Origin: Marchantia polymorpha subsp. ruderalis
Taxonomy: Eukaryota > Streptophyta > Marchantiopsida > Marchantiales > Marchantiaceae
NCBI GenBank assembly: GCA_037833965.1
Contig: AP031353.1
Coordinates: 28,770,501 to 28,834,500, forward strand
DNA: 64,000 nucleotides
Direction of reading: 5' to 3'
Shown: positions 34,501 to 64,000 of the stretch, one piece after another
Position numbering within the stretch: the first letter of the stretch is position 1
Layout of the letters: every line of letters starts with the position of its first letter
Translations under genes and position numbers: made by a program
Notes under the pieces: generated by a model
Told to the model about the DNA's origin: nothing
Seen by the model: the letters and a program-made list of their open reading frames with translations, nothing else
Database searches by the model: none

Positions 34501-34525
34501 TTCCTCTTTGAGAGTGGAGGAGAGA

Positions 34526-37590: not shown

Positions 37591-38988
37591 CCTGTGATAC
37601 CCCACTTTTGGTATTTTTGCGGAATTTAAAACATTTTTGGAAAACTGTACCACGGCAGCAGTGTAAATAGCCATCGGTGCACCAAATAGAGTGAAACTGG
37701 ATGATCTCGTAGAATCTCGTAGAATCCAAGAGTTGGGCGCAACGTCTGGGACAGACGCCGCCCTAAACGACGGGCTCTGAAGGAGTACCCCTTCGACGCA
37801 AGGCGCATAATCCGCCTTCGGCACTAGGGGAATCCCGCAGAATCTAAGCAATTCTCAAACTCCTTGACTTGGTTAGGGTTTTTTTGGAAAGAGCTTGACG
37901 CGCTGGTTCTAACGAGCCCAAGAACGCCCGAAACGGATCAGGACTCAGAAAGTTCTGACGGTCGAAAGATACGAAGGCCTTCGCCTACGCATAGGCGAGG
38001 GAAGTTCGCCTGCGCATAGGCGAAATAGGGTTTGACGTCGGCGGGAAGTCCGCCTTCGGCCCTAGGAATCCGCCTTCGGGGTTGGAACTTGTACGGCGCC
38101 TTCGGCGCCAGCGCATCACGGTTGGGTGAGGACCCAACGGAGTAGCAAAATCCGTACGGACCGTACGGACTCTACGGAAGGAACGGACGAGTGCGCCTTC
38201 GGCCGGTCGGGGTTCCGGAGACAAGAGCGCCGACGGAGAGGCGAGAGAGATGGACGGAGTCCGTTGACCGCGGTCAACGCCTTCGGCACAGCCGCCTTCG
38301 GCGCTGCGCCTACGGCGAGGGACCTGCGCGGACGAACGTCCTGTGTGCGGACGGAATTCGCCTACGCATAGGCGAGCGCCTACGCACAGGCGGATGAAGT
38401 TCGACGCCGGCGGAAACTCCGCCGGGGATTCTGCCTACGCAGAAGGAAGTTCAACTTTTGTCCTATGCGCGGACGAACGCCTTCGGCAGAGCGGAACTAG
38501 CCAAGTTGAAGTACGGATGAGTGTAGCGCGTCGGCGAGAAATCCGCCTTCGGCGCTGCGCGACCATGGCCGCGGCGTGATACGCTGGCGGAGTTCAAATT
38601 ACCAATTCGAGCGTGTGAGTGAAGTCGGCGTCGGCGGAGCGTGAAGCCGCGCGTGAGAGAGAAGGCCGTTATACCTCGGAGCCGGCGCGGCCATCAAGTG
38701 ATTCGACTTTCACGACCGAGAGCCGACCATGACCTCCTGCGAGCGGACAAAGGACGCCCCATTCTTGAATTTGCGATTTCAATTTCTGGTGCGAGCTGCG
38801 CGCGTCCACCTTCTAGCTGAGAGACGTTCTAGACATCACCGCGCGGAGATTTACTCGGTAGCTGGGAGAGAATTGAGTGCGCGCCATTTGGAATTGAGAG
38901 AGATTAGAGTTTGCAGAGGAAACAGAATCGCGAGCAAGAGGCTCGGGCATAGCAAAGAGAGAGTTGCGCAAACCAATTCAAGAACGCA

Positions 38989-41588: not shown

Positions 41589-42946
41589 TGTAGTAACACG
41601 TTTTTTGTTTTTTTTGCAGAATTTAAACAATTTTAGAAAACAAGTACTGAAGCAGTGTCTGTAGTTAGAAAAGGGTACGTTAAATAGAGTGGATTGAGGA
41701 GATCGTCACGAGGTCACGAAGAATCGCGAAGTCGGATGTACCAGCGCCAAATGTCTTTGGCGCCTTCGGCAAAAGCTCCTTTTCTAAGGTGTCTCTACTC
41801 ACGCGCTCCCAGCGTTTAAGGAAGCTACGCTGCCGGCGCAGACACCTCCGGAGGAGATTTTGCTAAAGACGTCAGAAGAACGGCACGGACCTCTGAAGGC
41901 TTCCGACCATGAGTGCGCCTTCGGCGATGCGCCGCTAGCGCGGAAAAGGAAACCTTCATAACAATCGGAATACACGGTAGTTCCAATTGATTGAAGTTGC
42001 ATTGGAAAGAGCTCGAAACGCTCGTCCTAACGAGCCCAAGAGCGTCGGAGATGGATCAGGGACGAAGAAGTTATGAGCATTGAAAAACTCGTAGCCGGAC
42101 ATGCGCCGTTCGCGCTAGGGTTCACAGTCGGAAAGGACTCCCGTACGCCTTCGGCGATGCGCCTGAATCGCGCGCTCATGGGAAGAAATCAACTCAGAGT
42201 CGGAAGCGCCTTTGGCGGCTGCGCAACGGAAGAAAAGCGCCGGCCGGATGTACGCCTCCGACGTGGCGCTGATAGGCGGATGCGCTGGCATGATTTGCGC
42301 CGGCGGGATATGCGCCGTTAGCAATGGACGAGGCAGAACGGACAAAACAAGCGGTACGAATACGCGCCGGCGTAATTCGCGCCGACTGGATGTGCGCCTC
42401 CAGCAAGGCGCCGACGGATGAGGAACACGCTAGCGGCGACACGCCTCCGGTGATGGTCGGGTTAGGAAAAGACAACATAGCCGACGTATACACTGCGGCG
42501 AACTCGAGTCCGGAAGACGGTGGCGGCGGGAGAATTCAACATTCACGCATGCGAATGCGCGCAGTGCGGAGACGTGAATTCGAGCATGCAAGGGCGAACC
42601 GTTAGGCCGTATAGCCGGCTGCGTAAATTGTAACCAGTAAGAACGTTGGACGATCTTGAATTCGGAGAAGAAAAGACTGCTCTCCAGTCTCATTCTTTCA
42701 TTCTTGATTTTGCGATTTCCAGCTTCCAAGAATTTGCGCAAGGGCGGAGAGACCTGCAGTGAGAGGGGAGAGTGCGGAGACGAGTTGCACAAGGATCTTG
42801 ACAGACCTTGGAGAGAATTTGCGAGTAGCGAACTTGAGCGCGAGAGAAGAGAGAGAGACAGCAGTCAGTACTTGAGCGGCCGACGCTCAGCGGCGATTGT
42901 GAGAGAGCGAGCGGAAGGGAGAACGTTTGTGTGTGCAGGAAACACA

Positions 42947-45508
42947 ATGTCGAAGGTCCCCCAGCTGCGAGTGTCTCCACTCAGGGTGCCGTAGATCGGT
43001 CTACGCGCATTCCAAGATGTGCTAATAGGGCTGAAGCTCGATTTCCTCCTGTGGGGATGGAACTGGACATGTCGGGAGATGGTGCGCGAGTATCTGTAGG
43101 AGAGACACAAGCCCTCACGCGGATTCCGTCCACATCCAGAGAGGTGGGACATTTGTGATTGGGCGCAGGTGTTGGGCAGGTGTGCCGGCGAGGAAGGGTA
43201 TCTCCTCTTCGAGGCCGATAGCGTGAAGGTGTCCCAGGAGGAAGAAATCTCCTACAATGAACTTTTCAAAGTTGCCAGGCATCCCAAGAACGGTTTCCGA
43301 ACACGGGATTACAAAGATCGATTGCGGAGAAATGTCGCGACTCCACTATTGCAGGTATTGCAGCCGACCAAGACCGCTTACATGCATGGTTGGCAGGTAG
43401 GATTTGTGGAGCTAGTGTTGTCAGGAGCTCTAGTGCATTGGGCACGGCTCCTGTGGAAGGTGACGCGCCAACATGCGCAAGAAGAGAGAGGAGGAACCCT
43501 CAATCATCTTTCGCCTTACCTGATTGTGTTTTATCGGGCAATGGGATGTTTGACAAATTCAGAGCGGACACGGTTTCCGCTGCTGACCCGGAGCTATCCA
43601 GGTAGATACTCGCGGGAGGCCGAAGTAGACACGGATCCGGACGAGGCACCTGCCAGTCCGCCTCCGGCTCCGCCCCCAGCAAGAGCAGCAGAAGAACGTC
43701 AAAGTGAGCGCGTTCCGCGAAAGCGGAAGTGGGATGAGAGACCTGAGGACAGGCAGCCGGAAGCGCCAGCTGCGCCGACTCGTAGTCGGCCAACCAACGA
43801 GCCTCACAGCCGACCAAAACAGAGGGCACGCAAAATGCCAACTAGTACTGAGGAGACCGGGCGTACTCCGGTCCGGCGGAGTATCTTGCCCACGCAGGAG
43901 GAGATAATCGCGCAGATTCTGGGGAAGTCGGCAAATACCTCTGCGCAGAAGGCACCAATGCCTTCGGAAGAAGACAGACTGACTGACAGTCGGCCGACTA
44001 CGAGTCGGGCGACTGAAGGTCGACAAACGGAAGGAAGGCCGACGGAGCGGCGCGTTGAACCGGACAGCAGGCCGGAAGCAGAAGAGAGTTTGGCTTACGA
44101 GCCAACAACCCTCAGAGGGTCGTCTTCGGCGGAAGGCACTTCTGGGAAAACGCCGCCAGCAAGCAGGCCAAGTGGAGTGAAGACGCGCAGGGTGTATCCG
44201 ACTACCAGTCGGACACCTGCTAGTCGGCCGACTGCGAGTCAGTCAACAGAGAGTCGGCCAGATTTGCCGACTGCGAGACGGACAGGGCCGGCGACCAGTG
44301 TGCGGACGCCTTTGGCAGACGCACCTCCAGCGAAGACACCTTCCGCGCAGATCGCGCCGCAAGAGCAGGCAGCAGAAGCGGGCGGTGCAAAGGTGACAAA
44401 AGTCACTGCGGCGTCGACCCCTTCGGAGACCGAAAATCGAGCCGGAACAGGGGCTCAAGCAGTGGGATCCCTCACTGCCTTGGATATTTTAGCAGGGAGT
44501 GGAGCGGCAGTCGCGGCGGAAGCTGTTGCGCGCCACAGTTCCAGGGAGTCGCCAAGGGATTCGGTGGCGACTGAAATCCTCGAAACGGAGGATGAGACGA
44601 GCTCGGAAGAGCAGGAAGCGGACTCTGTGCAGAAAACGCCAACAGGGGTGTTGTGCGAGCAGATAGTTCCACTCCTGCGATATCTGGATTGCAAGACATC
44701 CAAGTACTCGGGTACCGGAAAACCAAAGTCTTACGTGGAGACTGTCAAGCGCAGGACGAGGAGCAAGGTGGCCACTTGGGCCTCTAGGTGCCAAACATTG
44801 CAGGATAGGAACGCTACCCTCCGACAGCACCTCGCGGTCACACAGAAGCTATACCAAACCTTGCAACAGCAGAGGGAGGATGCGGCGACGAAAAACCAGG
44901 CGGATGCCGAGCTAAGACGGGCAAAGATCGAGTCTGAATTGCAGGAAGAGCGGAGACAAAACCGCATCTTAGCAGAAGAGCTTGCGCGCCAGAAGCGCGC
45001 CTTAGAAGAAAGTCAAAGTACACGCAAGGAGGATGAGGAGTTGTTGCGCAACTTGCAATCCGAGTGCGCGGATTTGAGGGCGCAGCGCGCGGATGCGGAA
45101 ATGCATCTAGCAGAGGTGGAAGGCAGCTGCCGGGCGCGAGAAGAGTTGGCGACACGGGTGACTCACTGTCTAAAAGGATACGCCCATTGGGAGGTGGCAG
45201 CTCAAGAGAAGATCACACTCAGGGAGTTCGAGCTTCGGGCGGCGGCATTGACGGAGGGTGACAGTCGGAGTCGGCGGCGAGTAGCAAGGAAATTAGAATC
45301 CTTCTTGTCGGGTGCGCGCGACACTATGGCGCACTTGGAGTCGGAAGTGACTGCAGCCCTCCGGCGTCTGGGGTTGCGCAGCCGGTCGGAAGATTGGCAA
45401 GGTAGAGATAGAGAGCGAGGCAGTCCGGCGCGCAGGAGGTGCAGCACCGGATCTGCAGAGTGCAGTAGTGTAGTTTGGTTTCGTGCAAGTGTTGCGAGTA
45501 GTAGATAG
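42947..45508 (+). pseudogene. LTR-borne ORF, solo-LTR copy (nearly whole)
   Basis: Same-length relative of 58872-61427, starting at an equivalent ATG (MSKVPQLRVSPLRVP) and ending about 30 bp before the TATA box. Most of it is open, with a couple of breaks confined to the N-terminal part. The order of parts is the same: N-terminal block, R/P/T/S-rich middle, acidic patch, LCEQIVPLLRYLD, coiled coil, GYAHWEVAAQEKITLREFEL. Confidence 0.75.
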
Positions 45509-45540
45509 AATAGCGTAGTGTTAGTTAGGACCTTTGAGGG

Positions 45541-45546
45541 TATAAA
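45541..45546 (+). promoter_or_regulatory. LTR TATA box
   Basis: TATAAA within ggtataaagtagatcaaggc, 33 bp after the LTR-borne ORF and about 0.91 kb before the LTR end. Conserved in all LTRs of the window, as is the following tttcggaagtgcagatcagg. Probable core promoter of the element. Confidence 0.65.
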
Positions 45547-46672
45547 GTAGATCAAGGCGTTTTGCCTTGGGACTCTTCCAGTTTCGGAAGTGCAGATCAG
45601 GAACTCACTTTCTTGGCGTGTTTGTGCATTTTGGTCCTGGCACCACGTAGAGAAGCTGCAGCATAGCGAAGTTACCGTATGTTGTAGTTGAAGGCCTTCG
45701 GCTGAATGTTCAGAGCTAGCACCCGGTTAGAGACTTGAGTAGTGCGGATCTGCACCTGCGGGTGATTTCTGATGCTCAGAGCCGGCTGCGAGTTAGAGAC
45801 TTGAACAGTTCCCCCTTACTCCTTCGAGTGACATATCCTGATTGTACTCCTACGGGAAGTTTCCCCTGAATGCCAAAGTGAAGTTTTATTACTTCGTGTA
45901 AGCCTTGGTTTGCAATTCAGGTTGTGTGTGTGTTACTGGATTGTGTCTCAGTTAAGTTCTCAGTCGGGCCTGTACCCCCTGCGTTTGGTGTGAGTCGAGG
46001 GTGACGAAGGGGCTTTGTTCCGAAGTGGGAAGTCCAGTCCGGGTTCCCTACGCTAGTTCCTGGCGGAAGGGCAGTAAAAGCCGGAGTGGGAGTCACTACC
46101 TGCAGAACCTCTGAGTGAACTTTTGAGACACCTTCCCCCTAAAATCTGAAGCGGAGGTCCTGACCGACCTCCGAGTTGTGCTTTTGCCAGTTTCAAGTGT
46201 GTGTGTGTGTGTGTGTTGAGTGACTACGCTGTACTGTGCATCCTCCGAGCATCCTCCGAGTCGAGCATCCTCCTCCGAGTCGAGCCTCCGAGTCGAGCAC
46301 TGCAGTATTTCTGGGAGTGACAGTCGCCTGAGAATTCAAACTCTACAAAAGTCTGTTAAACGTGACACTTTTTACTCTGTGTGTTGCCTCTGTCCCTGTG
46401 GGTTCGATCTTTTTACCACCATACTGCAGTTTTAGCCTTTGGTGGGTTCTTACAAGTCGCGGGACACCATGGCCACCCTTGAGACGGAGGTTTCCGCGGT
46501 GTTGCGGCGTTTGGGACTGCGCAGTCGAGCTTAAGACTGGCAGGGTAGGGAGTTAGTGCGCGGCAGTCCGTCGCGCAGGAGGCGGAGCACAGGTTCTGCG
46601 GAGTGTAGTGTAGCGTGGTTCCGTGCAGGCGCGTAGCGTAGTGCAGTGTAGTGTTAGTTATGACTTAGAAGG

Positions 46673-46678
46673 TATAAA
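46673..46678 (+). promoter_or_regulatory. LTR TATA box of the 5' LTR
   Basis: TATAAA in the 5' LTR, about 0.98 kb before its end and at the same relative position as in the sister LTRs. Transcription starting here would give a 5' leader of roughly 1.2 kb before gag. Confidence 0.6.
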
Positions 46679-47674
46679 GTAGTTCAAGGCGTCTTGCCTT
46701 GGGATTTTTCCAGTTTCGGAAGTACAGATCAGGAACTCATTTTCTCTGCGTGTTTGTGTCCTTAGTTCTTTCACCACGCAAGAGGAGCTACACCTTGGCG
46801 GTCCGCATTGTGTAGCTGAAGGACTTCGGCCGAATGTTCAGAGCTAGTACATTGGTTAGAGACTTGAGTAGTTCGGATCTACACCTGCGGGTGATTGCCG
46901 ATGCTTAGAGCCAGTGACGAGTTAGATACTTGAACAGTTTCCCCCTTACCCTTTCGAGTGACTGTTCCTGATTGTACTCCTTCAGGATTTTTCCCCTGAA
47001 TGCCAAAGTGAAGTTTTGCTACTTCGTGTAAGCCTTGGTTGTAAATTCAGGTTACGCTGCAGCAGGTGCCTTCAGGGTAACTCCTGTAGTATTTCTGGGA
47101 ATGACAAGTGCCTGAGAATTCAAACTCTTCAATAGACTGTTATGGTGTGTTACTGGAACGTTTCTCAGTAAGTCCTTCAGTGCGGACCTGTGTTCTCTGC
47201 GCGTTTTGTGAGTTGAGAGTGTTGTTCACCGCGTGTGAGTGACTTCGATCCGAAGTAGGAAGTCCAACCCGGGTTCCCTACGCTAGCAGAAAGCTAGTGG
47301 AAGGGTTGTGAAAGCCGGAGTTGGGAGTCACTACCCGCAGCTTCGCTGAGTACTCGCGAGAGACTTTCCCCCTGAAATCTTGAGTAGAGGTCCTAACCGA
47401 TCTCTGGGTTGTGTTTCTGTAGTTTCAGGTGTGTGTGTGTGTGTGTTGAGTGAACTACGCTGCACTGTGCGACCTCCGAGTGAGCTCCGAGTGAACACTT
47501 GCAGTATTTCTGGGAGTGACAGTCGCCTGAGAATTCAAACTCCTCAATAGTCTGTTAAATGTGACACTTTGTACCCTGTGTGTTCCTCTGTCTCTGTGGG
47601 TTCGACCTTTCTACCACTATATTGCAGTTTTAGCCTTTACTGGGTTATTAGATAAGAAGCCGACAACTTCTTTT

Positions 47675-47689
47675 TGGCGCCGCTGCCGG
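47675..47689 (+). other. Primer-binding site, Asp-tRNA-like
   Basis: tggcgccgctgccgg is nearly the complement of the plant Asp-tRNA 3' end, the primer known for Athila/Tat-type elements. It sits about 24 bases after the apparent LTR end, a longer spacing than is usual, which leaves the exact LTR boundary open. Confidence 0.65.
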
Positions 47690-47918
47690 GGACAGTGCGT
47701 CAACGCCGGGGTATACGAGCAGCAATGCTCGGTGAATGTTGACAGGAGCAAGTGGGAGCAGACTAAATGCGAGATCTGCCCGCAAGCTTCGTCGAGATTC
47801 AGAGAAAGCCGTGGAAGAGACACGGCGTTAGAATAAGAAAACACCAAAAAGAGTATCTAAGCCTAGTTCGGCCGACACCATTGGTGGAGATACCCCCAGT
47901 GACTCGGAACCGAACTTT

Positions 47919-49330
47919 GTGCTTACAGTTGTATTAGATATACCTTCCGCAGATTCCCTCCGTGACTTAGAACAGACCGCCCGAGAGTCGTCGGCAGACG
48001 CACCTATGGCGGACGGACAAGCCAATGCGCGGATGACATTCGCTCAACCCTTTACCAAGCATTCCTATCCGAAGTATAAAGGGAGCGGGGATGACGATGA
48101 CGCGGATTCCTACATCAAGCTGTTCGAATCAATGTCTATCACTAACCGCGAGATCACTGATGAGGACAGATTGCGGATTTTTCCTAGTCTGCTGTGGAAG
48201 AAGGCGCGCAGTTGGCATAATCACAAGAGCACCGACCCAAATGGGTTGCTAACGTGGGCTCAACTTAAGGAAAAGTTCCTTCGGCGTTTCCGTGAGCTTG
48301 GCTACGACAGTCGGGTGCTGACGAAGCTGAGTAACCTGCAGCGGGAAAAGAAGGAGAGCCTTCGTGACTACACAGAGAGGTTCTTAGACCTTCTCGACAG
48401 AATACCGAAAACGGGGCTAGGGTCCCTTTTCTCAGTCCAGCAAGCAGTGGATTGGTACGTGACCGGTTTAACCAGGGAGATGGAGACTTTCTGCAGACGC
48501 GGGAAGTGCGATACCATCAAAGATGTGATTGCATCGGCGGAAGCCTTTGAGACTTCCACTCTCAACCGAAGAGGGAGAGAGCGACGAGACTCGAAGGAAC
48601 GAAAGCCGAAGGAAGGACGGAGAAAGCGCAGAGGGGCTACACCGTTGTCGGAAGATCAGTCCTTGGACGGGAACTGTACCTCATCCGAAGAAGAGGAGAC
48701 CTCCTCGTCGGAGGAAGAGAAGAAGAGGAAGAAGCGCGGGGCAGCAAAGAAGAAAGGCCCAAGACGAGCAAATATGGACAGAGCGTCGGGAGACATTGCA
48801 TCGAAGGTGGAGACCCTGGTGAAGGACTTCGCCGACTTGAAAGTCCACGTGGTGGGTGGTCAGGATCGACGGAAGTCTCCAGGGAGGGTGCGAGCAAATT
48901 TGTGGTGTACTACGTGCGGAGCAGTGGGACATGCTAACACTGAGTGTCTTACCACACGTTCGTTGTACCCCGTAAACGCAATAGAGTGGGCACAACCGTA
49001 TTATGGGGAAAACCTCCAGTACTATGGCGAGGCGAGCGAAGAGGCAGCCTACACCATCCAGTCGGCCCCCGCTACTACCTCGATTCCACCAGTGCATATT
49101 CCCCGGTTCCATCCGAGAGATAGGGCTACTACGGTGCCCGTGAGGCGCATGGCACCTCCCAGGACGTATGACCCACCGCCGCCGCGAGCTTGTTTTAATT
49201 GTGGGGAAGTGGGACACTACTCACCTTAGTGTCCCCATCCAAAGAGACAAACAGGGTATGTTTCGAGCTGCAGTAACTGCAAGAAGTCTGGACATACCTC
49301 AGCGGAGTGCGATCAACCCCCAGTCAACCG
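47919..49330 (+). pseudogene. gag: gag region of the Ty3/gypsy element
   Basis: Encodes the structural protein of the virus-like particle. The capsid-like part (about 48040-48560) has the retrotransposon-gag signature (RSWHNHKS, LTWAQLKEKFLRRF, LREYTERFLDL-like). A basic, acidic-serine linker follows, then three zinc knuckles of CX2CX4HX4C type: CTTCGAVGHANTEC near 48905, CFNCGEVGHYS near 49190 and CSNCKKSGHTSAEC near 49268. Part of the broken element. Confidence 0.85.
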
Positions 49331-50966
49331 GCCCACGGTGCGATTTGTGACGACTCCTGCCAAGGAGGACGTACAGGTCAACCAGGTCGAGGCGAGTTCG
49401 GACAAGAATGACGAGGACGAGGAGTGGCCTGCAGAAGAGGTTATGTGCGGACGGGTGGAAACCCGCAGTTCGAGGCGATCGAAAGAAGAGGAACGATATA
49501 CTCGTAAGCACAGTCGAAAGGCCGATGATCGAAAAGGGAAGGGAGAAGAGAAGGCAAGTAGCAGGTCTGACTTGAGACCTGCGCGAAAGCCTTTGGCTAT
49601 ACGCGAAACACCTGCAGCGCGGACTGACACACAGGCCGAGGATGAACCAGTATGCGTGCTGAAGCGGGAGTACACCCCGGACATCAGGGACGAGGTGGCG
49701 AAACTGTTGAAAGAAGCGATCCGCACCCGAAAGGAAACAGAAGGAAGGAACATACCGACGCCCTCTGTCGCTCGGACGTCTGCACCTTTGGAACCGCGCA
49801 AGACGTCGGTGTCAAGCCGACACGCCCATTACGACTTAGTAGAAGATATCGGGAACCAGCGAGCTAACATCACGTTCAACCAGCTCCTCGACGACAACAA
49901 GACGTATCGAAAGATGTTGGTGCTTTCGCTACGCCGACCCCGGAAGCCACGTACAGCCAAACTTCCCCAGGTGTACCAAGTAACCAGTGAAGACCAAGGA
50001 CCTCCGGAGATCGATGTGGAGATAGGCAAGTGTTGTGTATGCAAGGTACCAGTAGACTCTGGATCGGAAGTCAACATAATGACTGAGGACACTGCGCGGG
50101 CTTTGGGGTTCAATGTTTTTGAACCTACGAAACGCGTGTTGAGGTTGGTAGAGCAGACACGGAGGATGTCTTTGGGTATGCTGTGCAATATCCGAACCAA
50201 CATCGGAGGTGCGGAGTTTCAATTGACCTATATCATCCTGCAGCCTCTGGTGAAGCAAGGATATGACATCTGTGGTAACCCACTTTTTGTTTTTTGTCGG
50301 AACTAAAACATTTTTCAATAGTAAGTACCGCGGCAGCAGCTGTAAATAGTAATCGGTACGCAAAACCAGAGTAAAAAGAGGATTGAGGACAGTCAAGGGG
50401 TTTTGGGCTTAGGCCACAGTGGGACGCTTGGGACGGAACGGGCGGTTCATGCTGCAGGATCCGCTTCGAGCACCTTCGGCGGTAGATCACTCATAACTTT
50501 CTCAATTCGTAACGCTTTGAGTTGCTTCGGCTCTTGTTGGAAAGAGCTCGACGCGTTGGTTCTAACGAGCCCAAGAACTTGTGAAACGGATGAGAGATCA
50601 CTGAGTTATGAGTGTCGGAAGTTACTGATGGGGGGCCTTCAGCGGTAGAGCGACTTTGGCGGTACGCCTTCGGCGGAAGAACCGCCGGAAGATGCGCCTT
50701 CGGCGGTAGACGCCTTCGGGTCAACGCCTTCGGCGATGCGGGAGAGTGCATTCGGCGGAAGAGTGAATCCCTCATAACTTTCTCAATTCGCAACTCCTCG
50801 ACTTGGTTAGGGTCTCGTTGGAAAGACCTCGACGCGTTGATTCTAACGAGCCCAAGAACGCCACGAACGGATGAGGACTCCGGGAGTTATGAAGGTCGCA
50901 AGATACTCAGCTTCTCGCCTACGAGTAGGCGAGGAAAGTTTGTCCTATGCGCGGACGAGAGAAGTC

Positions 50967-51752: not shown

Positions 51753-53019
51753 GTAGTTCAAGGCGTCTTGCCTTGTGATTTTTCCCTGTTTCGGAAGTGC
51801 AGATGAGGAACTCATTTTCTCTGCGTGTTTGTGTCCTTAGTTCTGTCACCACGCAAGAGGAGCTACAACTTGGCGTTCCGCATTTTGTAGCTAAAAGCCC
51901 TTCGGCCGAATGTTCAGAGCTAGTACATTGGTTAGAGACTTGAGTAGTTCGGATCTACACCTGCGGGTGATTGCCGATGCTCAGAGCCAGTGACTAGTTA
52001 GATACTTGAATAGTTTCGCCCCTACACCTTCGAGTGTTTGTTCCTGATTGTACTCCTTCGAGATTTTTCCCCTGAATGCCAAAGTGAAGTTTTGCTACTT
52101 TGTGTAAGCCTTGGTTGTAAATTCAGTTTACGCTGCAGCAGGTGCCTTTGGGGTAACCCCTGTAGTATTTCTGGGAATGACAAGTGCCTAAGAATTCAAA
52201 CTCTTCAATAGACTGTTATGGTGTGTTACTGGAATGTTTCTCAGTGAGTCCTTCCGTGCGGACCTGTGTTCTCTGCGCGTTTTGTGAGTTGAGAGTGTTG
52301 TTCACCGCGTATGAGTGACTTCGATCCGAAGTAGGAAGTCCAAACCGGGTTTCCTACGCTAGCAGCAAGCTAGTGGAAGCGTTGTAAAAGCCGGAGTTGG
52401 GAGTCACTACCCGCAGCTTCGCTGAGTGTACTCTTGAGAGATCTTCCCCCTGAAATCTTGAGTAGAGGTCCTGACGGATCTCTGGGTTGTGTTTCTGTAG
52501 TTTCAGGTGTGTGTGTGTGTTACGCTGCACTGTGCGACCTCCGAGTGCGCTCCGAGTGGACACTTGCAGTATTTCTGGGAGTGACAGTCGCCTGAGAATT
52601 CAAACTCCTCAATAGTCTGTTAAACGTGACACTTTGTACCCTGTGTGTTCCTCTGTCCCTGTGGGTTTGACCTTTCTACCACTATATTGCAGTTTTAGCC
52701 TTTAGTGGGTTATTACAACATCCTGCTCGGGCGACCGTGGCTATATGGCGCGCAAGTACGATGTGACTGGCGTAGGCATCGCCTTAAGTTTCCCCACCCC
52801 AAATATCCGTCTAGGACTATCACCGTTCCTTGGACCAAGATCCCTCCTGGAGGGGAGACACCATCGACGAGTGCGGGTTACACTTCGGGAGCGGACAGTG
52901 ATTCGTCCATTCGGTCAGACTACTGGACCCCTGATTCCGATTATTTCATGGGGTTTGGCGCTTGCTGTTCTATAGAAGAGGATCTGGACGCTATTCAGCC
53001 GGAGGACAAAGAGCAATTA

Positions 53020-54145
53020 ACGGTGGGACTGGGAAGAAGCGAGACGAGTCACATAGAGGGTATTGTGAATCCTAGTGACTGTCACGAAGTACAACTCAGT
53101 CCTGGTAAGTGCTTGAAGGTATCAAGCACGGTGAAAGGAGAAGAGCTAAGGGAGGTACAGGCCTTCCTTGGCCACTACGTAGATGTCCTCGCTTGGAGAA
53201 TAGAGGACATGAAGGGAATACCTGCGCGGTATGGAGAACACCGAATTGATTTATTGGATGAGGCAGTTCCAATACGTCAACGCCAGTACCGGCTCAACCC
53301 CAAATACTCCTTGCTAGTTAAGGAGGAAATAGATAAGTATCTGAGCGCAGGTATTATATACCCAGTGCTCAACAGTGAATGGGTATCCCCGATTGTCATC
53401 GTACACAAGAAGTTGACGGGTAAGATAAGGGTGTGTCAGGATTTCAGAAAGTTGAACGCGGCAACGCGTAAGGATCATCATCCTCTTCCATTCACGGACG
53501 CCATTTTAGACCATGTCGCGGGACATGAGTGCTATAGTTTTCTAGACGGGTTCTCAGGTTACAATCAGGTGTCTATCCGGAAGCAGGACAAGGATAAGAC
53601 GACATTCACAACCGATTGGGGAAACTATGCGTACCACAAGATGCCCTTTGGTCTGTGCAATGCACCTGCCACCTTCAAGCGAATGATGACCAACATTTTC
53701 CAGGAGCAGTTGAGGAAGTTCTTAGAAATATTCATAGACGACTTCTGCGTCTTTGGAAAATGGTCGGAACACCTGGGGCACCTGAGACAGACCTTTGATA
53801 GATGTAGGAAGAGCAGTTTATCGCTGCACCCCGAAAAATGTTTTTTCTTCATGACCAGCGGAATCCTGTTGGGTCATCGAGTTTCGTCGAATGGCATTGC
53901 AGTAGACACTGAGAAGGTTAAGGCCATCCTCGAACTAAAGCCACCAACGAATCTGAGGGAGCTGCGCGCATTTCTTGCTCATGTGGGATACTACCGAAGA
54001 TTCATACACATGTATGCGATCTTGGCGGCCAACCTGACCAAGTTGCTAAAGAAGGACGAGCCCTATGAATGGGGTGAGAAGCAGCAGACAGCGTTCGAGG
54101 CTCTCAAAGCTAAACTTACGACCGCTCCGGTACTAAGGAGTTCAG
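53020..54145 (+). pseudogene. Reverse transcriptase domain
   Basis: Ty3/gypsy RT. In order: YRLNPKYSLLVKEEIDKYL, SEWVSPIVIVHKK, RVCQDFRKLNAATRKDHHPL, FLDGFSGYNQ, MPFGLCNAPATFKRMM, the catalytic box as FIDDF (near 53735), LHPEKCFF and GILLGHRVS, then the connection LRAFLAHVGYYRRFI. The DDFCVFG form of the box and RKLNAATRKDHHPLPF are typical of the Tat/Athila branch. Part of the broken element. Confidence 0.9.
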
Positions 54146-54149
54146 ACTA

Positions 54150-54606
54150 GGACCGACCTTTCCATGTTTACGTCGACACATCGGCATTCGCCATCGGTGT
54201 CGTCTTAAGTCAGAAGGATGACAACAAAAAGGACTACCCAATTTATTTTGCGAGCCGTCAGCTATCGCTAGCAGAAAGGAAGTACACCACGATGGAGAGA
54301 GAGGCGTTGGGAATGGTGTATTCCTGCAAGAAGTTTAGACACTACTTAATCTATTACAAGTTTGTGTTCCATGTGGATCACTACGCCTTGCAGCATCTAG
54401 TAAAGAAAGAAAATCTGTCTGGCCGGATAGCCAGATGGGTGCTGTTGCTGCAGGAGTTTACCTACACGGTACAGACCAGGAAGGGGGTGCACCACGAAAA
54501 CGCAGATTACTTATCCAGATTGTGGACCCAGCCTACAGAGGAGGAACTAGTGGATGACTTCCCGGACGAACAACTTTTTCAGTTGTCCGCTGGCCATGAG
54601 TCCTGA
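54150..54606 (+). pseudogene. RNase H domain
   Basis: Ty3-type RNase H following RT. It contains HVYVDTSAFAIGVVLSQ, YFASRQLSLAERKYTTMERE, FHVDHYALQHL and HHENADYLSRL. It removes the RNA strand during reverse transcription in living relatives. Part of the broken element. Confidence 0.88.
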
Positions 54607-54615
54607 TATGCAGAG

Positions 54616-55854
54616 TTGTACAGGTACCTGCTTACGCTTCAATGTCCCGAGGGCATGGACGTTGAGCAAAGGACTGTCTTTATACATAAGGCTGGCCGGT
54701 ATCAACTTCAACATGGAGTCTTGTTCAAGAAGATGGCGGACGAACGATTGTGCAGATGCTTGGAGGAATCGGAGGTTCCACGGGTAGTAAGCGCGATGCA
54801 CACCGAAGATGCGGGTGGTCACTATGCCACCCGGAATACGGTCACGAAGATTGTGAATGCAGGATATTGGTGGCCGACCATGTTTAAGGATGTTCTCGAC
54901 TACATTCAAAAGTGCGACAGTTGCCAAAGGACAGGGAGACCAACGCCTACAACGCGGTGGCCCCTGACTCCCATCATGCCTTTAGCACCTTTCGAGAAAT
55001 GGGGCATTGACTTCGTAGGGCCAATACAACCAATGACTAGGAACACACGAAGGCGCTACGTTCTGGTAGCGACGGATTACGCAACCAAGATGGCGGAGGC
55101 CAAGGCCACTTAGAGGGATGATGCAGCCACGGTGGCGACCTTCCTGTTCGAATCGATCATCACGCGCTACGGATGTCCTTTAGAACTAGTCAGCGACCGA
55201 GGCACTCACTTTTTGAACCAGATAATCGAAGATCTGACACGACATTTTCACATCAAGCACTGGAAGACTACACCATACAACCCCAAGGCAAATGGGTTGA
55301 CGGAGAAATCCAATGGTCTGTTGTGCAAAATCATGCTCAAGGTCACGATAAACCACGCACACGACTGGGACACGAAGTTAGGAGCCGCATTATGGGCATA
55401 CCTTATAGCCGAAAAGATTACCACCAAGCAAACACCATACTTTTTGGTGTACGGTCAACATCCGATCCTGCCAATCAAATTTGAAGTACCCACCCAACAA
55501 ACATTGGACTTAAGACGGGTGAGTGCGGAAGAGAGTCAACTCTACAGGTTGCAGGAAGTCATGGTACTAGAGGAAAGAAGACGAGAAGCCGAAGAACGCA
55601 CTAGGCGTATTCAGCTTCGCAGAAAGGAGAGGTATGATCAGAGGATCAAACCAGTGCTCCTCCAGAAAGGCGATTTGGCGTTGCTCTACGACAGTAGGCA
55701 TGCCCGATTCCCAGGCAAGCTGCACCTAAGATGGATGGGACCCTACAAAGTCATCGAAGTCTTTCCAAACGGATCCATCCAACTTGCGGACTTGATGGGA
55801 GAGTTATTAGGCACCCGAGTGAACGCGTGGCGTTTGAAGAAATACCACGTATGA
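54616..55854 (+). pseudogene. Integrase domain
   Basis: HHCC zinc-binding region (HTEDAGGHYATRNT and CDSCQRTGRP, 54800-54940), catalytic core with the DDE positions in GIDFVGP, SDRGTHF and NGLTEKSNG, and a C-terminal GPY-like block (WMGPYKVIEVFPNGSIQLAD, near 55730) ending in VNAWRLKKYHV. No chromodomain is visible after it, consistent with Tat/Athila rather than chromoviruses. Part of the broken element. Confidence 0.9.
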
Positions 55855-55879
55855 GTGTTCGCGTGGGCGCTCACAATTG

Positions 55880-55891
55880 AGGAGGGGAGCA
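55880..55891 (+). other. Polypurine tract
   Basis: aggaggggagca directly abuts the 3' LTR start (tgtggtacccc at 55892), the normal site for plus-strand priming in LTR elements. Confidence 0.85.
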
Positions 55892-58871
55892 TGTGGTACC
55901 CCACTTTTGGTATTTTTGTGGAATTTAAAACATTTTTGGAAAACTATACCACGGCAGCAGTGTAAATAGCCATCGGTGCACCAAATAGAGTGAAATTGGA
56001 TCTCGGAGAATCTCGTAGAATCCAGGAGTTGGGCGCAATGTCTAGGATAGACGCTGCCCTAAACGACGGGCTATGAAAGAGTACCCCTTTGGAGGCGTAT
56101 AATCCGCCTTCGGCGCTACGCCTTTGATGCTAGGGGAAACCCGCAGAATCTAAGCAATTCCCAAACGCCTTGACTTGGTTAGGGTTTCGTTGAAAAGAGC
56201 TTGACGCGCTGGTTCTAACGAGCCCAAGAACGCCCGGAACGCATCAGGACTCAGGGAGTTGTGACGGTCGAAAGATACGAAGGCCTTCGCCTACGCATAG
56301 GCAAGGGAAGTTCGCCTACGCATAGGCGAAATAGGGTTTGACGTCGGCGGGAAGTCCGCCTTCGGCCCTAGAAATCCGCCTTCGGGGTTGGAGTTTGTAC
56401 GGCGCCTTCGGCGCCAGCGCATCACGGTTGGGTGAGGACCCAACGGAGTAGCAAAATCCGTACGGACCGTACGGACTCTACGGAAGGAACGGACGAGTGC
56501 GCCTTCGGCCGGTCGGGGTTCCGGAGACAAGAGCGCCGACGGAGAGGCGAGAGAGATGGACATACGGGACGGAGTCCGTTGACCGCGTCAACACCTTCGG
56601 CACAGCCGCCTTCGGCGCTGCGCCTACAGCGAGGGACCTGCGCGGACGAACGTCCTATGTGCGGACGAAATTCGCCTACGCATAGGCGAGCGCCTACGCA
56701 CAGGCAGATGAAGTTCTGCGCCGGCGGAAACTCCGCCGGGGATTCCGCCTACGCAGAAGGGAGTTCGACTTTTGTCCTATGCGCGGACGAACGCCTTCGG
56801 CGGAGCGGGACTAGCCAAGTTGAAGTACGAATGAGTGTAGCGCGTCGGCGAGAAATCCGCCTTCGCTGCTGCGCGACCATGGCCGCAGCGTGATACGCTG
56901 GCGGAGTTCAAATTATCAATTCGAGCGTGTGAGTGAAGTCGGCGTCGGCGGAGCGTGAAGCCGCGCGTGAGAGAGAAGGTCGTTATACCGCGGAGCCGGC
57001 GCGGCCATCAAGTGATTCGACTTTCACGACCGAGAGCCGACCATGACCTCCTGCGAGCGGACAGAGGACGCCCCATTCTTGAATTGGCGATTTCAATTTC
57101 TGGTGCGAGCTGCGCGCGTCCACCTTCTAGCTGAGAGACGTTCTAGACATCACCGCGCGGAGAGTTACTAGGTGGTTGAGAGAGAATTGAGTGCGCGACA
57201 TTTGGAATTGAGAGAGATTAGAGTTTGCAGAGGAAACAAAATTGCGAGCAAGAGGCTCTGGCAGAGCAGAGAGAGAGTTGCGCAAACCAATTTCAAGAAT
57301 GCAATGTCGAAATCGATGACGCTGCGGATGGTGCCACTCAAGCTCCCGCAGAATGGGTCACGTGCCTTGAGGACCGGCTGATTACAAGGAAACTCGAATT
57401 CTTGCTGTGGGGATGGAATTACGTGTGCGCAGACATGGTGCGCGAATGGCTGGACGAGGAACGACAACATACGCGCGGATTGCGTCCGCACGTAGATACA
57501 TGTGGTAACACACTTTTTGTTTTTTTTGCAGAATTTAAACAATTTTAGAAAACTAGTACGAAAGCAGTGTTTGTAGCTAGAGAAGGGTACGCTAAATAGA
57601 GTGGATTGATGAGATCGTCACGAGGGCACAAAGAATCACGTAGTCGGATGTACCAACGCCAACGTCTTCGGCGCCTTCGGCAAAAGCTCCTTTTTGAGGT
57701 GTCTCTATTCACGCGCCTCTAGCGTATAAGGAAGCTACGCTTCCGGCACAGACACCTCAGGAGGAGGTTTTGCTAAAGACGTCAGGAGAAGGGCCCGGAC
57801 CTCTAAAGGCATCCGACCATGAGTGCGCCTTCGGCGAAGCGCCGCTAGCGCGAAAAGGGAAAACCTTCATAACAATCGGGATACACGGTAGATCCAGTTG
57901 GTTGAAGTTGCATTAGAAAGAGCTCGGGATGCTCGTTCTAACGAGTCCAAGAGCGTCGGAGATGGATCAGGAATGGAGAAGTTATGAGAGTCGGAAAACT
58001 CGTAGCCGGACATGCGCCGTTCGCGCTAGGGTTCACAGCCGGAAAGGATTCCCGTACGCCCTCGGCGATGCGCCTTTGGTGGAATCACGCGCTCATAGGA
58101 GGAAACCCACTAAGAGTCGGAAGCGCCTTTGGCGGCTGTTCATGGAAGGAAAGCGCCGGTCGGATGTACGCCTCCGACGTGGCGCTGACAGTCGGATGCG
58201 CTGACAGTCGGATGCGCTGGCATGAGTTGCGCTGGCGGATATGCGCCGGCAGCAACGGACGAGGCATAAAGGACAAAATAGGCGGTACGACTGCGCGCCG
58301 GCATAATTCGATCCGACTGGATGTGCGCCTCCAGCAAGGCGCCGACGGATAACGAACGCACCAGCGGCGACACGCCTCCGGAGAAGGGCGGGTTAGGAAA
58401 AGACAACAGGGCCGACGTATACCCTGCAGCGGACTCGAGTCCGGAAGGTGGTGGCGGCTGGAGAATTCAACGTTTAAGCATGCGAATGCGCGCAATGCGG
58501 AGACGTGAATTCGCGCATGCAAAGGGCGAACCGTTAAGCCGTATAGCCGGCTGCGTACGTTGCAACCAGTAAGAACGTTGGACGTTCTTGAAATCGGAGA
58601 AGAAAAGACTGCGCTCCAGTCTCATTCTCTCATTCTTGACTTTGCAATTTCCAGTTCCAAGATTACGCGCAAGGGCGGAGCGACCTGCAGTGAGAGTAGA
58701 GAGTGCGGAGACGAGTTGCACAAGGATCTTGGCGGACCTTGAAAGAATTGGGAGTAGCGATCTTGAACGAGCGCAGAGAGAGTGAGCAGTCAGTGCTTGA
58801 GTGGCCGACGCGCAGTGGCGATTGTGAGAGAGCGAGCGAAAGGGAGAACGGTTGTGTGTGCAGGCAACGCA

Positions 58872-61427
58872 ATGTCGAAGGTTCCCCAGCTGCGAGTGTC
58901 TCCACTCAGGGTGCCGCAGATCGGTCTACGCGCATTTCAAGATGTGCTGACGAGGCTGAAGCTCGATTTTCTCCTCTGGGGGTGGAATTGGACATGTCCG
59001 GAGATGGTGCGCGAGTATCTGCAAGAGAGACACAAGCCTTCTCGCGGATTTCGCCCACACCCAGAGAGATGGGAAATTTGCAATTGGGCGCAGGTGTTGG
59101 GCAGGTGTGCCGGCGAGGAAGGGGATCTCCTCTTCGAGGCCGACAGCGTGAAAGTGTCCCAGGAGGAAGAAGTCTCTTACAATGAGCTCTTCAAGGTGGC
59201 TAGACATCCCAAGAACGGTTTCCGGACACGGGATTACAAGGATCGATTGCGGAGAAATGTCGCGACGGCATTGCTGCAGATATTGCAGCCGACCAAGACC
59301 GCTTACATGCATGGTTGGCAGGTAGAGTTCGTGGAGCTAGTGTTGTCAGGAGCTCCGGTGCATTGGGCACGGCTCCTGTGGAAGGTGACGCGCCAACATG
59401 CGCAAGAAGAGAGGGGAGGAACGCTCAATCATCTATCGCCTTACTTAATCGTGTTTTACCGGGCGATGGGATGTTTGACGAATGCTGAGAAAACTCGGTT
59501 TCCGCAGCTGAGCCGGACTTATCCAGGTAGATATTCGAGGGAGGCCGAAGTAGACACGGATCCGGACGAGGAACCTGCCAGTACGCCTCCGGCTCCGGCT
59601 CCAGCCAGAGCAGCAGAAGAACGTCGAAGTGAGCGCATTCCGCGCAAGCGGAAGTGGGATGAGAGACCTGAGGACAGGCAGCCGGAAGTACCAGCTGCGC
59701 CGACTCGTGGTCGGCCCACCCCCGAGCCTCACAGTCGACCAAAACAGAGGGCACGCAGAATGCCAACTGTTACTGAGGAGACCAGGCGAACTCCGACCCG
59801 GCGGAATCTCACACAGGAAGAGATAATTGCTCAGGTCCTAGGGAAGACGGCAGAAACCTCTGCACAGAAGGCACCACGGCCTTCGGGAGGAGATGGACGG
59901 ACTGACGACCGGCCGACTGCGAGTCGGATGACTGAAGGTCGACAAGCGGAAGGAAGGCCAACTGAACGGCGCGTTGAACCGGACAGCAGGCCGGAAGCAG
60001 AAGAGAGTTTGGCTGACGAGCCAACAATCCTCAGAGGGTCGTCTTCGGCGGAAGGCACTTCTGGAAGAACGCCACCAGCAAACAGGCCAAGTGGAGTCAA
60101 GACGCGCAGGGTGTATCCGACTCCCAGTCGGACAACTGCTGGTCGGCCGACTGCGAGTCGGACAACAGAGAGTCAGCCGGATTCGCCGACTGCGAGACGG
60201 ATGGGGCCAACGACGAGTGTGCGGACGCCTTCGGCGGACGCACCTTCAGCAAGGACACCTTCCGCGCAGATTGCGCCGGAAGGACAGGCAGCAGAAGCGG
60301 GCGGATCAAGAGTGACAAAAGTCACTGCGGCGTCGACCCCTTCACAAACCGAAGATCAAGCCGGAACAGGGGCTCAAGCAGTGGGATCTCCCACTGCCCT
60401 GGATATTTTAGCAGGCAGTGGAGCAGCAGTCGCAGCGGAAGCTGCTGCGCGCCACAGTTCCAGGGAGTCGCCAAGGGATTCGGTGGCGACTGAGATCCTC
60501 GAGACTGAGGATGAGACGAGCTCGGAAGAGCAAGAAGAGGATTCGGTGCAGAAAACGCCAACAGGGGTGCTGTGCGAACAGATAGTTCCACTCCTGCGAT
60601 ATCTGGATCGCAAGACATCCAAATACGCAAGTGCCTTAAAACCGCAGTCTTATGTGGAGACAATCAGGCGAAGGACGAGGAGCAAGGTGGCAAGGTGGGC
60701 CTCTAGGTGCGGAGTATATGTGGATAGGAACACCGCCCTCCGACAACACCTGGCGGTCACCCAGAAGCTGTACCAAGCCTTGCAGCAGCAGAAGGAGGAT
60801 GCGGCGACGAAGAGTCAGGCGGAGGCCGAACTAATACGGGCAAAGATCGAGTCGGAACTGCAGGAGGAGCGGAGACAGAACAAAGTCCTAGCAGCCGAGC
60901 TTGCGCGCCAGACGCGCGCCTTAGAGGAAAGTCAAAGAGCCCGCAAGGAGGATGAGGAGTTGTTGTGCAACTTGCAAACCGAGTGCTCGGATTTGAGGGC
61001 ACAACGTGCGGAATTAGAAATGCAGCTGGCAGAGGTGGAGAGCAGCTGCAGGGCACGAGGAGAGTTGGCGGCACGGGTGACTCGTTGTCTAAACGGATAC
61101 ACCCATTGGGAGGTGGCAGCTCAAGAGAGGGTTACACTCCGGGAGTTTGAGCTTCGGGCGGCGGCCTTGACGGAAGGTGACAGTCGGAGTCGGCGGCGAG
61201 TGGCGAGAAAATTAGAAACTTTCTTGTCGGGTGCGCGCGACACTATGGCGCACTTGCAGTCGGAAGTCACTGCAGCGCTCCGACGCCTGGGGTTACGCAG
61301 CCGGTCGGAAGACTGGCAAGGTAGAGACAGTAAGCGGAGCAGTCCGGCGCGCAGGAGGCGCAGCACCGGATCTGCTGAGTGCAGTAGAGTAGTTTGGTTT
61401 CGCGCAGATGCTGCGAGTGGTAGATAG
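58872..61427 (+). CDS. LTR-borne ORF, 851 aa, function unknown (open copy)
   Basis: Open sense frame inside U3 of the solo LTR, not gag or pol. I chose the ATG at 58872 (MSKVPQLRVSPLRVPQIGL) because the sister LTRs start at the equivalent place. Residues 1-220 look globular (FLLWGWNWTCPEMVREYL, YKDRLRRNVATALLQILQPT, GGTLNHLSPYLIVFYRAM). Residues 230-530 are disordered and rich in R, P, T and S, with repeated TASR/GRPT words. An acidic patch lies near 546 (ETEDETSSEEQEED). Next come LCEQIVPLLRYLDRKTSKYA (near 566), a coiled coil at about 616-734, then GYTHWEVAAQERVTLREFEL, SRSRRRVARKLETFLSGARD and a basic tail. No zinc finger, protease or envelope features are visible. The N-terminal block faintly recalls the plant-transposon-associated domain found in Athila-like ORFs (weak). 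It belongs to a fossil solo LTR; expression is unknown. Confidence 0.7.
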   Translation: MSKVPQLRVSPLRVPQIGLRAFQDVLTRLKLDFLLWGWNWTCPEMVREYLQERHKPSRGFRPHPERWEICNWAQVLGRCAGEEGDLLFEADSVKVSQEEEVSYNELFKVARHPKNGFRTRDYKDRLRRNVATALLQILQPTKTAYMHGWQVEFVELVLSGAPVHWARLLWKVTRQHAQEERGGTLNHLSPYLIVFYRAMGCLTNAEKTRFPQLSRTYPGRYSREAEVDTDPDEEPASTPPAPAPARAAEERRSERIPRKRKWDERPEDRQPEVPAAPTRGRPTPEPHSRPKQRARRMPTVTEETRRTPTRRNLTQEEIIAQVLGKTAETSAQKAPRPSGGDGRTDDRPTASRMTEGRQAEGRPTERRVEPDSRPEAEESLADEPTILRGSSSAEGTSGRTPPANRPSGVKTRRVYPTPSRTTAGRPTASRTTESQPDSPTARRMGPTTSVRTPSADAPSARTPSAQIAPEGQAAEAGGSRVTKVTAASTPSQTEDQAGTGAQAVGSPTALDILAGSGAAVAAEAAARHSSRESPRDSVATEILETEDETSSEEQEEDSVQKTPTGVLCEQIVPLLRYLDRKTSKYASALKPQSYVETIRRRTRSKVARWASRCGVYVDRNTALRQHLAVTQKLYQALQQQKEDAATKSQAEAELIRAKIESELQEERRQNKVLAAELARQTRALEESQRARKEDEELLCNLQTECSDLRAQRAELEMQLAEVESSCRARGELAARVTRCLNGYTHWEVAAQERVTLREFELRAAALTEGDSRSRRRVARKLETFLSGARDTMAHLQSEVTAALRRLGLRSRSEDWQGRDSKRSSPARRRRSTGSAECSRVVWFRADAASGR

Positions 61428-61460
61428 GATAGCGTAGTGCTAGTTAGGATCTTTTGAGAG

Positions 61461-61466
61461 TATAAA
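61461..61466 (+). promoter_or_regulatory. LTR TATA box
   Basis: TATAAA within gagtataaagtagatcaaga, only 33 bp after the stop of the 851-codon frame and about 0.93 kb before the LTR end. It places the ORF wholly in U3. Confidence 0.65.
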
Positions 61467-62393
61467 GTAGATCAAGACGTTTTGCCTTGGGACTCTTCCA
61501 GTTTCGGAAGTGCAGATCAGGAACTCACTTTCTTGGCGTGTTTGTGCATTTTGGTCCTGGCACCACGTAGAGAAGCTGCAGCATAGCGAAGTTACCGTAT
61601 GTTGTAGTTGAAGGCCTTCGGCTGAATGTTCAGAGCTAGCACCCGGTTAGAGACTTGAGTAGTGCGGATCTGCACCTGCGGGTGATTTCTGATGCTCAGA
61701 GCCGGCTGCGAGTTAGATACTTGAACAGTTCCCCCTTACTCCTTCGAGTGACATATCCTGATTGTACTCATACGGGAAGTTTCCCCTGAATGCCAATGTG
61801 AAGTTGTATTACTTCGTGTAAACCTTGGTTTGTAATTCAGGTTGTGTGTGTGTTACTGGATCGTGTTTTCAGTAAGTTCTCAGTCGGGTCTGCACTCCCT
61901 GCGTTTTGTGTGATAGTCGAGGGTGACGTCCACGGCGTACGTAGAGGCTTCGTTCCGAAGTGAGAAGTCCAGTCCGGGTACCCCCGCTAGTTCCTGGCGG
62001 AAGGGCAGTAAAAGCCGGAGTGGGAGGCACTTCCTGCAGAACCTCTGAGTGAACTTGCGAGACACTTTCCTCCTGAAATCCGAAGCGGAGGTCCTGACCG
62101 ACCTCCGAGTTGTGCTGTTTTTGCCAGTTTCAGGTGTGTGTGTGTGTGTGTTGAGTGACCAAGCTGTACCGTGCATCCTCCGAGCATCCTCCGAGTTGAG
62201 ATCCTCCTCCGAGTCGAGCCTCCGAGTCGAGCACTGCAGTATTTCTGGGAGTGACAGTCGCCTAGAATTCAAACTCTACCAAAAGTCTGTTAAATGTGAC
62301 ACTTTTACTCTGTGTGTTGCCTCTGTCCCTGTGGGTTCGATCTTTTTACCACCATACTGCAAGTTTTAGCCTTTGGTGGGTTATTACAATACA

Positions 62394-63249: not shown

Positions 63250-64000
63250 AGCCACGCTCAAGACAGTCACCGACAAATTCAATGGCGACCGAAATCCTCA
63301 ATTTGGAGGATAACGAAGAAGGAGGATCAACGGAATCAGCGTCGGGATCGGAATCAACTGAGGAGGAGGAGCAGTCAGTGGCAGGCACGCCGACGGCGGC
63401 GCTCTACGAGCAGGTAGTGGAGAAGTGGAGAAAAGTGGAGAAGTACGCGGACCCCTGCCAACCTGGGTCCTACGTCGAACTAGTGAGAAGACGAACCCGC
63501 ACTAAAGTCCACACCAGCAAGTTGTTGGCCCGTGTGGATCAGGAACTTAAGGATCTGCGGGAGAGGCATGATTGCCTGTGGGGCCACCTCAACCTCACTA
63601 AGAAGATGTACAAGGCTCTCGACAAGACGAAGAACGAGAAGCTGGAAGATTTTGCCAAGGCAAAGGCGAAGCTCGCAGAGGAGCTGGATTCTAAGCAGGC
63701 TCAGAATCTGAGGAGCTCGTGCGACAAACACGGTTGTTAGAGCAGTGTCAGCTCGCACGTCAGGCGGATGAAGAATTAATCCGCAGACTGCAATCCGAGT
63801 GCGGGGAGTTGAGAGCGCAGCGTGCGGAGGCCAAATTGCAGTTGGTTGTAGTTGAAGACGATTGCCGGCGGGAGGCAGATCGCACGAAGGAAGAATTGGC
63901 AAGGCGAGTCAGCCAGTGTCTCAGAGGTAACGCCCACTGGGAAGTGGCGGCGCAGGAGAAATTCACACTGCGCGAGTTAGAGCTTCGTGCGGCGGGGTTG
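63250..64000 (+). pseudogene. LTR-borne ORF, C-terminal part, in the 3' LTR (broken, cut by the window end)
   Basis: Parallels 40740-41520 of the 5' LTR: MATEILNLEDNEEGGSTES, KYADPCQPGSYVELVRRRTR, a coiled coil, and RGNAHWEVAAQEKFTLRELE at the very end. It belongs to the large element's own version of the ORF and is broken. Confidence 0.75.

Follow-up and report, generated by a model that had tools for sequence, protein, structure and literature searches.

The long terminal repeats (LTRs) of retrotransposons are normally non-coding. The sag gene of mouse mammary tumour virus (MMTV) lies in the U3 (unique 3′) region and is copied into every LTR. In the available text of the reports on this virus, sag is an LTR-borne accessory gene whose product is LTR-encoded (PMC3840357, PMC11998498) and is expressed from a spliced RNA (PMC3840357). 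Here we describe an 851-codon open reading frame (protein P0001) that lies inside an LTR in a 64,000-bp stretch of the liverwort Marchantia polymorpha subsp. ruderalis (assembly GCA_037833965.1, contig AP031353.1, positions 28,770,501 to 28,834,500), which as a whole is referred to as the window. This frame is likely to be the third gene of a recently active Marchantia Ty3/gypsy family and is most probably located wholly in U3; for its product we favour a nuclear coiled-coil factor that dimerises and acts in trans.

In plants, extra open reading frames (aORF/eORF) are described in OTA elements, among them the Transposase_28 frame of Retand, the plant-mobile-domain frame of Ogre, ORF-1 of Athila and gene23 of Grande; in non-chromoviral Ty3/gypsy elements most accessory genes are situated 3′ of pol, ahead of the 3′ LTR, and the Grande accessory protein is nuclear (PMC7264820, PMC6317226, PMC11963269, all from the accessible portions of these papers). 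Some Tat-type accessory proteins show Transposase_28 together with coiled-coil or SMC-like matches (PMC11963269, PMC7264820), and in the same portions the plant accessory frames are described in the internal region, with LTRs of up to ~5 kb (PMC7264820, PMC6317226).

The Marchantia frame is like MMTV sag in that it is a probable accessory-protein frame located in the LTR, 3′ of the other genes (PMC3840357, in its available text). It is unlike sag in that its host is a plant Ty3/gypsy element and no sequence relation to Sag was found, and whereas Sag is a type II transmembrane glycoprotein, P0001 is a basic coiled-coil protein with no membrane segment by hydropathy. An earlier note on this DNA, made from the letters alone, had compared the frame with MMTV Sag; the comparison probably holds for topology (a frame in the LTR, most likely in U3) and not for the protein family, and it is sharpened because a TATA block after the stop codon most likely puts the gene in U3. 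The extra frames of plant OTA elements lie in the internal region and are often antisense, as far as the accessible descriptions go, whereas the Marchantia frame is sense and inside the LTR in all 30 best-scoring loci. The likeness of P0001 to the Tat-type accessory proteins, in the parts of those reports that were available, is one of architecture only, both having a head, a disordered linker and a coiled coil. Ty3/gypsy elements lacking a second RNase H have been described from Marchantia (PMC10508981), and here too there is one RNase H region in pol; the available part of that description mentions no LTR frame. No report of a gene located in a plant LTR was recognised from titles and abstract openings, subscription papers falling mostly outside the search.

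Occurrence of the frame in the LTRs

The frame is intact from its ATG at 58872 to its stop at 61427 (+ strand; 851 sense codons) and lies in a 4,888-bp solo LTR of the young family (57501–62388, + strand) that begins with TGTGG, ends with TTACA and has the target-site duplication ATACA on its left (57496–57500) and on its right (62389–62393). This bears out the earlier description of an 851-codon frame inside a clean-ended TG..CA LTR. The solo LTR sits inside the 3′ LTR of an older element, hereafter the host element. A second solo LTR, of a related subfamily (41589–46454, + strand, duplication AGTCG), carries a homologous frame at 42947–45508 (+ strand) which is 86% identical and has two in-frame stops near its N-terminus; the two solo LTRs are inserted into the two LTRs of the one host element, whose gag-pol region lies between them. 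When the window was searched by tblastn, four occurrences of the frame were found: at 58872 (100%), at 42947 (86%), in the host 5′ LTR (38989–41582 and 46457–46633, 41–73% by piece) and in the host 3′ LTR (fragments at 57339–57491 and 63258–64000, 39–60% by piece). All four occurrences that had been claimed were thus recovered, with the qualification that the two copies in the host element are of a diverged lineage, each split by a solo LTR, and that the copy at 42947 is broken by its stops.

The genome (241 Mb in 9 contigs) was then searched with the frame, and 53 copies were scored; these are the best-scoring ones only and therefore allow no inference on the rate of decay or on total copy number. 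No stop was present in 49 of the 53, and 30 of the 53 occur in pairs or triples with neighbour distances of 10,654–10,670 bp in 15 of 16 cases and 15,884 bp in one. When the 30 best-scoring loci were examined with their flanks, every one was an LTR copy: 12 solo LTRs with perfect duplications (the window copy among them), eight 5′ LTRs (one of which, L033, has a different first 0.9 kb), eight 3′ LTRs, one middle LTR shared within a tandem and one LTR truncated at its 3′ end (L016). The frame was free of stops in 28 of these 30 loci. All named protein matches were from Marchantia polymorpha.

In three full-length Ty3/gypsy elements, which were retrieved piece by piece, the frame is present in each of the two LTRs; these are ~4,870 bp each and 99.92, 99.98 and 100% identical within the pair, with a period of ~10.66 kb and matching 5-bp duplications (TCCTC, GTACA and TGTGC). 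The check proposed in the earlier note, whether both LTRs of full-length members carry the frame, thus came out positively in the three elements examined; none of them has the short non-coding LTRs that would have spoken for internal sequence trapped by recombination, and these elements together with the 30 loci show the frame to be a standing part of the LTR. In the element read in detail (L011/L012) a primer binding site (PBS)-like sequence, TGGCGCCGCTGCCGGGGA, lies 22 nt after the LTR, gag begins ~84 nt past the LTR with its own ATG and in the same orientation as the frame, pol follows with reverse transcriptase (RT), a single RNase H region and integrase, and a purine tract, GAGGAGGGGGG, lies two bases ahead of the 3′ LTR; the PBS and the polypurine tract (PPT) were picked by eye. 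The order is LTR(gene)-PBS-gag-pol-PPT-LTR(gene), in which the purine tract comes after pol and before the gene. Assignment to Ty3/gypsy follows from a gag with a CCHC motif followed by pol in the order RT-RNase H-integrase, and from near-identical TG..CA LTRs, 5-bp duplications and PBS-like and purine-tract sequences.

Some features of individual loci may be recorded here. The distance of 22 nt between the LTR end and the PBS-like sequence (L011:7576-7616; window 47653–47692) is larger than usual, and the two families have almost identical spacers there. Tandem LTR-internal-LTR-internal-LTR arrays were seen at L042/L043/L044 (C5:9246393-9270257) and at C5:31215655-31239521, their periods being exactly 10,656 bp and 10,657 bp, respectively; in the former the middle LTR has both a PPT and a PBS, and the duplication GTATT is common to the outer flanks. 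L019, L020 and L022 (C1:2398335, 3147226 and 2804704), two of them 3′ LTRs of paired elements and one a solo LTR, share the flanking duplication AAAAT, as if one copy of a duplicated region had lost its internal part by LTR recombination. At L030/L032 (C9:6185227-6198440) a full-length element lies antisense inside a further LTR copy from its own family, and GTAAC is the duplication suggested by the flanks.

Age of the gene and coding constraint

The LTRs of the host element carry a homolog of the frame with 50% aligned-residue identity, and so do two solo LTRs related to the host element, L051 and L052 (75–92% identical to the host LTR at the DNA level, depending on the piece; duplications AGCCC/AGCAC, with one mismatch, and AGCTC, respectively). 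Since the host element belongs to the diverged lineage, the gene must be older than the split of the two lineages. Five further diverged copies (L045-L049) were found, and overall 49–54% of the aligned residues are identical between the window frame and the diverged lineage.

When the window frame was compared codon by codon with six diverged copies (L045-L049 and the host copy), the ratio of nonsynonymous to synonymous substitution (dN/dS) was 0.20–0.26 overall, being 0.15–0.21 for residues 1–230, 0.21–0.42 for residues 231–540 and 0.14–0.21 for residues 541–851. The proportion of synonymous differences (pS) was 0.67–0.71, which is near saturation; third codon positions within the frame differ at 54–58% between lineages and were the most changed positions in all seven comparisons. 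The six dN/dS comparisons are not independent because the branch to the young family is common to all of them, and the signal of constraint is blurred because all six diverged copies are broken, with one to four stops in the aligned codons. For the frame of the second solo LTR, dN/dS was 0.26 overall, 0.09 in the N-terminal part, 0.51 in the middle and 0.26 in the C-terminal part. Judging from these between-lineage ratios and the 49 stop-free frames among the 53, the frame has apparently been maintained beyond chance openness.

A TATA-like block and a putative leader follow the frame

A TATA-like block, GTATAAAGTAG (61460–61470, + strand), starts 33 bp after the stop codon and is identical in nine of the ten sequences compared. 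From this block to the LTR end there is ~0.9 kb with no long frame, and here the young LTR is 80–81% identical to the host LTR, L051 and L052; the putative R-U5 (repeat and unique 5′ regions; 61490–62388, + strand, start approximate, non-coding) is ~80% identical between lineages. The young family and the host LTR have stop, TATA block and leader in the same order. In the DNA upstream of the frame, alignment between young and host LTRs is confined to two short stretches, positions 1–118 and 413–496. Because the TATA block and the ~80% identical leader follow the stop, the promoter of the genomic RNA would lie downstream of the frame, and the two are most likely the core promoter and the R-U5 of that RNA. 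The location of the frame in the LTR is observed; with the promoter downstream the whole gene would be in U3, and the frame is thus most likely complete within the LTR upstream of the genomic-RNA start, as the conservation of the TATA block indicates.

The protein

P0001 has an isoelectric point of 9.6 and basic clusters at residues 258, 599, 774 and 827. In the predicted model the N-terminal part is helical with low to moderate confidence, the middle is disordered and rich in Ser, Thr, Pro, Ala and Gly, and one long confident helix (592–722) is followed by a helical C-terminus. No informative relative was found in Pfam or PDB. At E<=10, four Pfam families were listed for P0001, and for 39 members 25 of 31 families were displayed. 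No gag or pol profile was among those listed for P0001, in agreement with the earlier statement that the frame is unrelated to either. Transposase_28 (PF04195) and the plant mobile domain (PF10536) were absent both from the four families of P0001 and from the 25 of 31 member families displayed, and Transposase_32 (PF20167) and ATHILA (PF03078) were not listed for P0001 in Pfam, though in all four cases a shared fold is possible. A genome search with PF20167 gave no match, which is uninformative because 14 control genomes were likewise silent, and PF03078 gave one match, below the cut-off and elsewhere. Because the head-linker-coiled-coil arrangement recalls the Tat-type accessory proteins, we favour a predicted nuclear trans-acting factor over an Env-like protein or an extension of Gag, and the product is probably a U3-encoded accessory protein, predicted to be nuclear.

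Alternative explanations

Several observations weigh against reading the frame as a U3 accessory gene. Among the six broken diverged copies themselves dN/dS is 0.25–0.49 (15 pairs), the mean pairwise pN/pS among 30 young copies (25 distinct sequences) is 0.56, pN being the proportion of nonsynonymous differences, and between the host and young elements the LTR protein has diverged more rapidly (pN 0.345) than have gag (0.243) and pol (0.064). L048 is the one of the ten sequences compared that does not have the downstream TATA block, the host family does not share the TATA-like and splice-acceptor-like sites that the young family has upstream of the frame, and the downstream promoter is itself deduced from conservation. 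P0001 has no homolog of known function, and P0016 (MARPO_0006s0274), a partial NCBI gene model, fuses a portion of the LTR frame with a gag domain.

An ancient capture of a plant host gene by the LTR, followed by amplification without any function for the element, is unlikely. The lack of a Pfam or PDB homolog and the many matches annotated as ordinary Marchantia genes would be in keeping with it, but all 30 loci checked are LTR copies, a second lineage (the host element, L051 and L052) carries the gene in its own LTRs with constraint between the lineages, and no single-copy homolog in the plant was seen, though no search aimed at one was made. A host gene captured once had been named earlier as what would overturn the reading of the frame as an element gene; a recent single capture does not fit these data, but one that took place before the two lineages separated could still fit.

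It is quite improbable that the frame serves Gag as an N-terminal or alternative exon, in a fusion that would arise if RNA begun in the 5′ LTR extended across the gene and continued into gag by splicing or readthrough. P0016 speaks for such a fusion, and gag starts shortly past the LTR in the orientation of the frame, but P0016 is one partial gene model only, and in the young family the frame is separated from gag by its stop, the TATA block and ~1 kb with no long extension of the gag frame, while gag has its own ATG. The same stop-TATA-leader order in the host LTR and the conserved C-terminus that the frame has of its own also speak against it. The gag domain of P0016 bears a long charged repeat; the model may represent a spliced transcript or may be an annotation artefact.

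An Env-like protein displaced into the LTR is highly improbable: the frame is in an env-like position, sense and 3′ of pol, but P0001 is strongly basic, has a long disordered middle and a coiled coil, and shows by hydropathy no segment of membrane-spanning strength (the top 19-residue Kyte-Doolittle mean is 1.22). That the frame is dead or spurious, open merely through composition or recent expansion, is hardly credible, since despite a low-complexity middle that is free to vary (dN/dS up to 0.42, and the 0.51 of the second solo LTR), the pN/pS among young copies and the stops in all six diverged copies, about half of the aligned residues have been kept between lineages whose synonymous sites are near saturation, the terminal thirds are the most constrained, changes are concentrated at third positions, and frame-independent substitution between lineages was not seen.

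Proposed mechanism and implications

Plus-strand DNA synthesis of LTR elements starts at the purine tract. An accessory gene that lies 3′ of this tract, in the env-like position, would become U3 and be copied into both LTRs, because the synthesis starts upstream of it; in this way an accessory gene in its usual place 3′ of pol could have become an LTR gene simply through use of an upstream tract. The TATA block just past the stop would start the genomic RNA, which, beginning after the stop of the gene, would then contain a single copy of the gene, near the 3′ terminus. In 5′ LTRs and solo LTRs the gene would sit upstream of the genomic promoter and would need a promoter of its own in the first 1.37 kb of U3, and the protein may be translated either from a transcript of such a promoter or from a spliced message. 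The predicted nuclear coiled-coil protein would act in trans on how the element itself is expressed, silenced or integrated, and to name one of these is a guess. Since the gene is inside the LTR, even solo LTRs can keep an intact copy and might persist as one-gene units. The fuller proposal, that this lineage moved its third gene into U3 by way of an upstream polypurine tract and that each LTR, solo LTRs included, suffices by itself to encode a nuclear factor acting in trans, is put forward tentatively, and we would not yet bet on it.

Annotation, dating and solo-LTR studies treat LTRs as non-coding, whereas the solo LTRs of this family are potential protein-coding genes, and the LTR gene accounts for many of the 'hypothetical protein' models in the Marchantia annotation. 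If the U3 reading is true, an LTR-gene arrangement of the MMTV type can arise and be maintained outside retroviruses, and if the fuller proposal is true, an accessory function outlasts complete elements and builds up in the genome without depending on them, and it may help or hinder later copies. A model liverwort would be a tractable system in which to ask what retrotransposon accessory proteins do.

The host element and other features of the window

The host element lies on the + strand. Its 5′ LTR is divided by the second solo LTR into a part ahead of the insertion (37593–41588) and a part past it that includes the TATA block and leader (46460–47652). The diverged frame is split likewise, with one in-frame stop in the aligned part of 38989–41582 and its C-terminal end (residues 788–847, 73%) at 46457–46633. 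A PBS-like TGGCGCCGCTGCCGGGGA, identified by eye, follows 22 nt past the LTR end (47675–47692), and then come the gag region (47736–50066, 60% identical to young-family gag, two stops) and the pol region with RT, RNase H and integrase (53014–55851, 88% identical to young-family pol, three stops). The purine tract CAATTGAGGAGGGGAGCA (55874–55891) adjoins the 3′ LTR, whose left part (55892–57500) runs up to the solo LTR that carries P0001 and contains the start of the host frame (residues 13–63, 57339–57491), cut by that insertion. A later part of a host-type frame (residues 530–766) is at 63258–64000 in the rearranged 3′ LTR. The rearrangement was seen both in the window (62418–64013) and in L053, with inverted LTR fragments after the solo LTR; the right target duplication of the host element was not found because the match to the 5′ LTR ends near 64013, amid this rearrangement.

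At 24649–26183 there are six tandem copies of a ~270-bp unit that resembles the host-type LTR ~220–400 bp from its start (69–72% to 37814–37989 and 56120–56295). A leucine-rich-repeat coding region recognised by Pfam (7978–10369) and a similar region identified by eye only (34508–37075) are probably genes of the plant host.
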